The notes under the pieces: generated by a model
Seen by the model: the letters and a program-made list of their open reading frames with translations, nothing else
What the model was told of the DNA's origin: nothing
Database searches by the model: none
Shown: positions 3 through 912 of the stretch, one piece after another
Layout of the letters: each line of letters starts with the position of its first letter
Position numbering within the stretch: the first letter of the stretch is position 1
Source: a virus
Length of the DNA stretch: 26,617 bases
Reading direction: 5' to 3' (one strand)
Virus record (IMG/VR): IMGVR_UViG_3300034375_006719
Span: 1 to 26,617 of that record
Position numbers and translations under genes: made by a program

Positions 3-83
3 GGAAAAGATATTATTGAAGGTGTACCTTTTCATTATCCTGTACAAGGAAAGTGTATTAAAGCACGAGGAGAAGCAACATGA
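3..83 (+). CDS. C-terminal end of an unidentified gene (cut by window edge)
   Basis: A reading frame open from the left edge ends at a TGA that overlaps the holin ATG in the ATGA arrangement used repeatedly in this genome. It gives 26 residues, beginning GKDIIEGVPF and ending KARGEAT, with no motif I recognise. The overlap style and the AGGAG ribosome site for the holin lying inside its last codons argue that it is a real gene of the same plus-strand operon. Its product cannot be told; tail or other late proteins are common at this place in podoviruses. Confidence 0.45.
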   Translation, partial: GKDIIEGVPFHYPVQGKCIKARGEAT

Positions 84-475
84 TTCAAGCACTTATTGGA
101 CCAGTAACAAGTCTATTAGATAAGTTTATTCCTGATGCAGATGAAAAGGCTAGAATTGCACATGAGCTTGCCACTATGGGTGAAAAACATGCTCAACAGT
201 TAGCACTTGCTCAAATAGAAGTTAACAAAGCTGAAGCTGCTAGCGGCAGCATATTTAAAGGTGGTTGGAGACCTTTTATAGGTTGGGTATGCGGTGTGGC
301 TTTTGCATATCATTTTGTTTTACAACCAATTATTTTGTTTGCAGTTACAGCTTATGGATTAGAAATACCAGCATTGCCAGAGTTTGATATGACAAGTCTT
401 ATGACTGTACTTGGTGGTATGCTAGGTATTGGTGGTTTGCGTACTTATGAAAAGCAAAAGGGGCTAACTAAATGA
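80..475 (+). CDS. Holin of the 3-TM, gene-transfer-agent type
   Basis: A 131-residue protein that should form the inner-membrane lesions releasing the lysozyme. The first 55 residues are polar and helical. The segment from about residue 62 (GGWRPFIGWV) to 95 is hydrophobic enough for two membrane passes, and a third short hydrophobic segment (about 104-120, MTSLMTVLGGMLGIGGLRT) precedes a basic tail, KQKG. The GGWRPFIGW signature followed by LQP is what I know from the GTA_holin_3TM family. AGGAG lies 7 bases before the ATG. The stop codon overlaps the lysozyme start, so the two are translationally coupled in a lysis cassette. Family assignment is by motif recognition; the role follows from the lysozyme next door. 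Confidence 0.85.
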   Translation: MIQALIGPVTSLLDKFIPDADEKARIAHELATMGEKHAQQLALAQIEVNKAEAASGSIFKGGWRPFIGWVCGVAFAYHFVLQPIILFAVTAYGLEIPALPEFDMTSLMTVLGGMLGIGGLRTYEKQKGLTK

Positions 476-912
476 ATATAGAACAACTTAGAGAGGAGCT
501 TAAGATTGATGAGGGAGTTAAGTATGAAATTTATCTTGATCACCTTGGCCTCCCTACTTTTGGCATTGGGCATCTTGTTTTGGAGTCTGATGAAGAGTAT
601 GGAAAACCAGTCGGAACTTCGATTACAGAAGATCGAGTCAACGAATGCTTTGCTCGCGACGTCGATGTGGTGCTCAATGAATGTAAAACGCTCTTCCCCA
701 GTTTCGAAGTATTGCCCGAAGAAGTCCAATTAATTATTGCTAATATGATGTTTAATATGGGAAGACCAAGACTTAGTAAGTTTAAAAAGTTTATTGCAGC
801 TGTAGCAATTAGTAATTGGCAAGAGGCTGCAAATCAAATGGTTGATAGCCGTTGGTATAAGCAAGTAACTAATAGAGCAGATCGACTTGTTAACCGTATG
901 AGAAGTATATAA
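472..912 (+). CDS. T4-type lysozyme (endolysin, glycoside hydrolase family 24)
   Basis: A 146-residue muramidase that cleaves the glycan strands of peptidoglycan. It aligns along its length with T4 lysozyme: the N-terminus LKIDEG (catalytic Glu14, equivalent to T4 E11), IYLD (Asp23, T4 D20), LPTFGIGH (Thr29, T4 T26), then MMFNMG and the C-terminal SRWYKQVTNRADR block. No signal peptide or signal-anchor is seen, so release probably depends on the holin. The length is slightly below T4 lysozyme (164). AAAAGGGG lies 8 bases before the start. Codons between about 596 and 730 end unusually often in C or G (GTC, CTC, TTC, CCC, GAC), unlike the rest of the gene; this coincides with the embedded reading frame at 524-733. 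Confidence 0.95.
   Translation: MNIEQLREELKIDEGVKYEIYLDHLGLPTFGIGHLVLESDEEYGKPVGTSITEDRVNECFARDVDVVLNECKTLFPSFEVLPEEVQLIIANMMFNMGRPRLSKFKKFIAAVAISNWQEAANQMVDSRWYKQVTNRADRLVNRMRSI
512..517 (+). promoter_or_regulatory. Ribosome binding site for the embedded frame
   Basis: AGGGAG lies 6 bases upstream of the ATG at 524, inside the lysozyme coding sequence. This near-ideal placement decides the start in favour of Met at 524 over the in-frame starts TTG 506 and ATG 509. Confidence 0.5.
524..733 (+). CDS. Embedded small membrane protein in +1 frame of the lysozyme gene (spanin-like candidate)
   Basis: A 69-residue frame lies wholly inside the lysozyme gene. It starts MKFILITLAS, has one hydrophobic segment (about residues 3-23) and then a polar 45-residue tail with Cys50 and Cys64 and a basic end (CPKKSN). 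There is no lipobox cysteine. Support: AGGGAG sits exactly 6 bases before the ATG; the host gene's codon choice shifts to C/G endings just where the frame runs; and no other spanin is seen in this lysis cassette. Caution: third codon positions here are T-rich, which makes +1-frame peptides hydrophobic by chance, so the membrane segment alone proves little. If real it could be a short inner-membrane spanin subunit or a holin regulator. Function is inference. Confidence 0.55.
   Translation: MKFILITLASLLLALGILFWSLMKSMENQSELRLQKIESTNALLATSMWCSMNVKRSSPVSKYCPKKSN

Follow-up and report, generated by a model that had tools for sequence, protein, structure and literature searches.

One lysis gene may lie inside another, and such cases are already known: in phage lambda, Rz1 lies wholly in the +1 frame of Rz (PMC6139136). 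In mycobacteriophage Ms6, a second endolysin is made, in frame, from within the endolysin gene lysA (PMC3111421). The locus described here resembles the lambda case in that one gene lies wholly in the +1 frame of a lysis gene, and the Ms6 case in that a second product would arise from inside an endolysin gene. Yet, its outer gene codes for a lysozyme instead of an i-spanin, the embedded product displays no lipobox (by eye) and spanin pairs occur nearby in 10 contigs; in Ms6, by contrast, both products share one frame and the second is itself an endolysin. In the open-licence literature searched, no report was found of a T4-type phage lysozyme gene that contains a second gene in another frame, nor of a membrane protein encoded in this manner over the codons of the lysozyme active site.

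Among T4 proteins, the antiholin RI is a membrane protein with a periplasmic part and a disulfide, and Spackle is encoded by a separate gene. For the T4 holin T, PMC12162936, where RI is also named, presents the membrane-adjacent (bridge) helix as the only periplasmic part needed for lysis. T and RI are comparable to the putative embedded protein in being disulfide-containing membrane proteins that extend into the periplasm. They differ from it in that the embedded protein, of about 70 aa, would have almost no cytoplasmic N-terminus, whereas T needs an N-terminal amphipathic helix. Spackle (gp61.3) is comparable in its small size, periplasmic location, disulfide and link to a T4-type lysozyme, but it displays a cleaved localisation signal and a compact helical bundle, and inhibits gp5 instead of the endolysin (PMC7677548). 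As membrane or periplasmic disulfide proteins that act at the level of membrane holes or lysozyme, all three provide working parallels; no sequence relationship of the embedded protein to T, RI or Spackle was found.

The window and its lysis cassette

The window, i.e. the whole stretch of DNA analysed, is the 26.6 kb (26,617 nt) viral record IMGVR_UViG_3300034375_006719, which is perhaps a fragment. The features considered here are the following.

1-83, directly 5' of the holin gene: small gene, C-terminal end only (translation by eye)
80..475, + strand: GTA_holin_3TM holin (PF11351, E 7.8e-26; phrog_3427 holin, E 1.1e-34)
472..912, + strand: T4-type lysozyme (endolysin), 146 aa (PF00959, E 1.4e-9; PHROG endolysin and tail lysozyme families)
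509..733, + strand: longer alternative form of the embedded gene from an in-frame ATG at 509, 74 aa (12 of 14 open relatives with ACG at the 524 position)
512..517, + strand: Shine-Dalgarno-like AGGGAG with a 6-base spacer to ATG 524 (from sequence)
524..733, + strand: embedded +1 gene, predicted 69-aa single-pass membrane protein with a disulfide-type tail (frame conservation, codon null, third-base bias, start and GGA, cysteine parity)
530..592, + strand: hydrophobic segment of the embedded protein, presumably transmembrane (boundaries set by eye; AlphaFold2 helix; third-base bias)
671..673, + strand: first tail cysteine codon, window codon 67 (cysteine patterns)
713..715, + strand: second tail cysteine codon, window codon 81 (89 of 116 open relatives have cysteine here)
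963-2723, downstream of the lysozyme gene: ribonucleotide reductase (profile matches)

The 3' end of the holin gene and the start of the lysozyme gene share 4 bases, and a relative of the single-subunit (T7-type) RNA polymerases is encoded further along the window. The outer gene was assigned to the T4-type lysozymes from its Phage_lysozyme domain and its E/D/T triad, the latter by comparison with T4. Residues E14, D23 and T29 are spaced as in T4, whose catalytic triad and spacing we take as the basis for naming them. Among the 116 relatives with an open +1 frame (defined below), D23 and T29 were always kept and codon 14 was invariably GAA or GAG.

The original prediction placed an overlapping gene between ATG 524 and a stop at 731-733, with AGGGAG 6 bases upstream, and this ORF proved exact: it has 69 codons, ends with TAA and is in the +1 frame relative to the lysozyme gene (472-912). 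Its product had been described as a single-pass membrane protein with a two-cysteine tail, in agreement with the one hydrophobic stretch and the following tail with cysteine codons at 671-673 and 713-715. The reported shift in third bases was also borne out, since 20 of 45 lysozyme codons in 596-730 end in G or C, against 6 of 53 non-Met/Trp codons after it (6 of 52 in the prediction) and 12 of 40 before. The in-frame ATG at 509, upstream of ATG 524, had not been mentioned.

Conservation of the frame among relatives

Relatives were collected from five IMG/VR scans (viral scans: best 80 each) and three phage records. The 264 loci with a lysozyme match yielded 181 distinct complete genes, or 182 including the window, once duplicates, incomplete genes, genes shorter than 390 bases and genes containing N were left out; these 182 sample the relatives nearest to five queries and do not amount to a census. 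A gene was termed open when its +1 frame displayed no stop over window codons 18-84 and closed when it displayed at least two; the 15 genes with exactly one stop (including L082) belong to neither group. The stop-count null used 117 open and 50 closed genes, while later counts omit L083 (n = 116) and L081 (n = 49), respectively.

The +1 frame was open over the same codons in 117 of the 182 distinct relatives and interrupted in 65. When synonymous codons were resampled with lysozyme residues fixed and with the usage of codons 90-146, 4.16 stops were expected per open gene, the mean probability of no stop was 0.006, and only 0.7 of the 117 open genes were expected to be open. For the window alone, 4.76 stops were expected and 4 of 1000 draws were stop-free. 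The open genes carried 5.19 stops in codons 90-145 of the +1 frame and 7.56 in codons 18-84 of the +2 frame. They are not copies of each other, since their silent sites are near saturation (median synonymous difference 0.56, with 0.59 expected), and the frame was thus open beyond chance across divergent relatives. Among representatives differing by at least 0.35 at silent sites, 63 of 101 were open; at a difference of at least 0.45, 29 of 47 were open, 3 had one stop and 15 were closed.

Stops in close relatives had been put forward as evidence against the gene, and stops were indeed present in 65 of 182. Yet, the group with at least two of them was also devoid of the start, third-base and cysteine signatures described below, and closed genes are thus read as lineages that lost the embedded gene or never had it. 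Genes with stops contained fewer than the null (3.43 observed, 5.02 expected), a deficit that is not fully explained and possibly reflects partial decay.

All open members counted were contigs of uncultured phages. Eight loci originated from genome contigs: the four examined (L274-L277) have stops in the frame, and the other four are partial or distant. In C48C1 (L083, lysozyme 53%), the frame is open and, by eye, not hydrophobic. The Votkovviruses HTVC200P (L082) and HTVC119P (L269) were not counted as members, the remainder of their frame not matching. Over the N-terminal part of their lysozymes (41% and 35% identical, respectively) the +1 frame is open and hydrophobic, possibly an independent or ancient case.

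Start, third bases and synonymous change

An ATG at the 524 position was found in 100 of 116 open but only 16 of 49 closed genes. ACG occupies this position in 14 open genes; in 12 of these, an ATG lies five codons earlier in the same frame, without an intervening stop. The ATG at 509 was the only one of the two in 12 of the 116. Likewise, lysozyme codon 15, which contributes to the ribosome site, was GGA in 70 of the 116 open genes but in 9 of the 49 closed ones. Against this, the two groups were little different in anti-SD pairing energy (-6.97 and -5.63, respectively). At the other end, 73 of 116 open frames terminate at the same codon (87), and 95 of the 116 products are 69-71 aa long.

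Third positions of lysozyme codons serve as second positions in the +1 frame and thus set hydrophobic (T) or polar residues in the embedded protein. At four-fold sites of open genes, T amounted to 62% and A to 10% in the membrane part (codons 17-41), C to 33% and T to 16% in the tail, and T, A and C to 42, 41 and 11% after the overlap. The corresponding values in closed genes were 34% T and 33% A, 12% C and 28% T, and 36, 33 and 22%. This bias, together with cysteine parity (see below), points to selection on the residues of a second protein. The hydrophobicity of the +1 frame is partly a by-product of the lysozyme sequence: the resampled mean was 1.73, with 2.28 in open and 1.21 in closed genes, and only 14 of 116 open genes exceeded their own 95% null.

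The proposed check for suppressed synonymous change was at most weakly positive. In open pairs of 85-97% identity (262 pairs), the fraction of differing synonymous codons dipped to 0.26 in the tail, against 0.37-0.50 after the overlap, while closed pairs of this range, which number only 38, showed 0.34 and 0.36-0.42. Yet, closed genes dipped about as much as open ones among pairs of 65-75% and 75-85% identity. The first 16 lysozyme codons were also slow in synonymous change.

Tail cysteines and predicted build

Tail cysteines were even in number in 109 of 116 open genes, against 25 of 49 closed ones, and a column-shuffle null for the 116 gave a mean of 58 and a maximum of 77 in 5000 shuffles. 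The commonest sets were (67,81) in 48 open genes, (68,81) in 31, none in 11, (56,67,74,85) in 6, (74,85) in 5 and (74,81) in 4, the remainder being rarer sets; apart from seven odd cases (L017, L042, L220, L125, L126, L194 and L168), open genes hold 0, 2 or 4. On a tree built from codons outside the overlap, 50 single-column cysteine changes were accompanied by only 4 changes of parity, whereas the same number of changes placed randomly gave a mean of 26.3 and a minimum of 17 (1000 runs). Such switching of partners with parity kept is the pattern required by an intramolecular disulfide and implies that the frame is translated and its tail exposed to an oxidising compartment. An even cysteine count in a hidden frame is comparative evidence of an unusual kind and can test other hidden exported proteins.

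The second coding constraint suggested by the original prediction thus found support in the open frame (117 of 182), its null, third bases, start and cysteines, as did conservation of frame, start and end and a single-pass membrane protein with two cysteines. Sequence statistics likewise support the proposed build and the pairing of tail cysteines. Judging from these comparisons, the embedded ORF is very probably a real, translated gene, and its tail is probably periplasmic. AlphaFold2 modelling with 103 family members returned a single helix (residues 2-62) with a mean pLDDT of 76.8 and a pTM of 0.35, confidence in the tail being about 50.

In the clade composed of L112, L113, L118, L200 and L264, the embedded ORF stops exactly at codon 67, i.e. 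the first cysteine codon, and keeps the 49-residue membrane-plus-helix form only. Its near relatives L173, L136 and L175 are without tail cysteines.

Database comparisons

With the window's embedded protein as single query and the low-complexity filter on, a tblastn search of 50,697 phage records yielded no hit up to an E of 10; the best match of the window lysozyme in these records was 56% identical, with a closed +1 frame. A BFVD structure search with the embedded protein gave no match at E up to 10, a PDB profile search gave three (E 0.24-0.85), none naming a function, and a Pfam scan of the family gave scattered weak matches, none naming the embedded protein. The PHROG scan with 103 family members produced weak matches to 58 families and, among the matches listed (25 of 58), Rz-like spanin families led. 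Three of these matched 15, 15 and 14 of the 103 members (E up to 0.1, best 3.2e-5), i.e. at least 15 members overall. As a control, the same loci supplied 36 natural single-membrane-helix ORFs, which matched 16 PHROG families and no spanins (Fisher 0.012 for family versus control, kinship among the 103 being ignored). Individual scans of 10 members gave Rz-like matches for 5, covering the membrane helix and the one that follows; such weak matches may reflect only this build, a membrane helix and then an amphipathic one.

Spanins and other explanations

The original prediction hinted that the embedded protein might stand in for a missing spanin, and a short Rz-like i-spanin would agree with the three top PHROG families being Rz-like where none of the 36 control ORFs matched a spanin, as well as with the predicted continuous helix. 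It would also suit the window itself, a possible fragment in which no spanin adjoining the lysozyme gene was recognised and no lipobox ORF below 200 aa was found. Yet, ten open-frame contigs (L110, L117, L121, L122, L127, L133, L134, L137, L141 and L180) display, downstream of the lysozyme gene, an o-spanin-type lipoprotein gene with a separate i-spanin-type gene before it. The o-spanin-type genes start 328-1049 bases after the lysozyme gene (2194 in L180); L121 and L122 share one lysozyme sequence, and L223 is the same contig as L180. Five of the i-genes (best E 1e-12 to 2e-5) and five o-genes (those scanned) matched Rz-like spanins of PHROG. Each o-spanin-type gene of these ten contigs thus has an i-spanin-type gene of its own, and, since full spanins coexist with it, the embedded protein is not simply the missing one. 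Only about 45 of its residues lie beyond the membrane, and u-spanin traits, i.e. a lipobox or a C-terminal membrane helix, were seen by eye in none of the 116 embedded proteins. An i-spanin is considered unlikely. The closed gene L142 likewise occurs with an i-spanin/o-spanin pair.

The lysozyme is the one constant neighbour across contexts, which would also fit a small envelope protein acting against incoming phages, by superinfection exclusion or lysozyme inhibition, and not on lysis timing; Spackle, likewise small, periplasmic and disulfide-bonded, acts as an inhibitor of the gp5 tail lysozyme (PMC7677548). Such a role appears improbable, as the embedded protein matched in sequence no named family with that activity, no obvious signal-peptidase site follows the hydrophobic stretch (by eye) and the embedded tail is shorter than the 75-residue mature Spackle. 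That the frame is a mere by-product of lysozyme conservation and biased codon usage, with no gene at all, is hardly credible. It is true that the lysozyme residues by themselves render the +1 frame rather hydrophobic in its first part, that D13-E14 and Y18-E19 of the lysozyme fix part of the start and that genes with stops contain fewer of them than resampling predicts. Open genes, however, avoid stops only in the +1 frame and only over these codons, and closed genes display little or nothing of the cysteine parity, the start or the third-base bias.

For the function of the overprinted +1 gene, we give roughly even odds to an inner-membrane protein of about 70 aa that controls lysis as a partner of the lysozyme and is not a spanin. 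The link to lysis rests on the DNA shared with the lysozyme gene, which the ORF cannot leave. A holin is also present in cassettes of the window type and spanins in some contigs; the common denominator would be the lysozyme or the host envelope. Our best guess is control of lysis together with the lysozyme, as a small holin or antiholin or by holding or inhibiting the enzyme at the membrane. Both proteins would be made from one stretch of message, the embedded one starting at 524 or 509. It would begin with a membrane helix, continue with roughly 25 residues of amphipathic helix and end in a short tail on the periplasmic side, in most cases closed by a single disulfide. According to the topology, deduced in part, the N-terminus would stay inside and the tail would reach the periplasm, to be closed into a loop by host oxidation. 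It may then delay or trigger lysis via membrane holes or via the lysozyme, both the partner and the direction of the effect being conjectural.

More tentatively, and at somewhat less than even odds, a lysozyme with its own membrane-bound controller in the +1 frame may form a lysis module of two inseparable proteins (the enzyme and a holin/antiholin or inhibitor), with the membrane segment encoded across the active-site codons of the enzyme, that moved between unlike phages as one unit of 0.44 kb. A gene inseparable from its lysozyme offers a clean system to see whether overlap holds cooperating proteins together during cassette exchange. Moreover, since gene finders tend to miss such genes, uncultured phages may have lysis cassettes that are less simple than they appear.

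Genomic contexts

The open frame was kept in unlike surroundings: with a GTA-type holin and ribonucleotide reductase, with a family B DNA polymerase (L084), with PhoH and an exonuclease (L150), and also beside spanins, DnaJ and ClpB-type genes (L127). The phages sharing it would be T7-like and, judging from the polymerase and PhoH genes, apparently T4-like. In the closed genes L044, L183, L187 and L213, the neighbourhood is the same as in open relatives, indicating that the embedded gene can be lost without visible replacement. By eye, no neighbour-gene rule separating open from closed genes was seen.

Several neighbours recurred. A row of lysozyme, i-spanin, o-spanin, DnaJ and ClpB-type genes occupies L127:4453-8269 and L110:441-4401, with Pfam support in L127 only. 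In relatives with a GTA-type holin, the gene before the holin codes for a product of 64-69 aa with a hydrophobic start and several cysteines (L001:458-667, L233:1389-1583 and L168:1926-2135), for which no PHROG match was obtained. Several of these lysis cassettes have in their vicinity a gene for a protein of some 150-170 aa that carries a C-terminal membrane helix (L001:6-446, L168:1443-1916, L160:4443-4934 and L133:5401-5907). The L001 copy matches phrog_32327 (function not assigned), as does, weakly, L233:926-1384, while the L168, L160 and L133 copies were recognised by eye. At the start of contig L012 (4-274), translation gave peptide strings of a pattern typical of sequencing-adapter read-through, and this end is probably an artefact. 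In L218, L222, L225 and L229, the lysozyme gene is directly followed by one for a secreted protein of 354-359 aa, which we take to resemble BMP-type periplasmic binding proteins.
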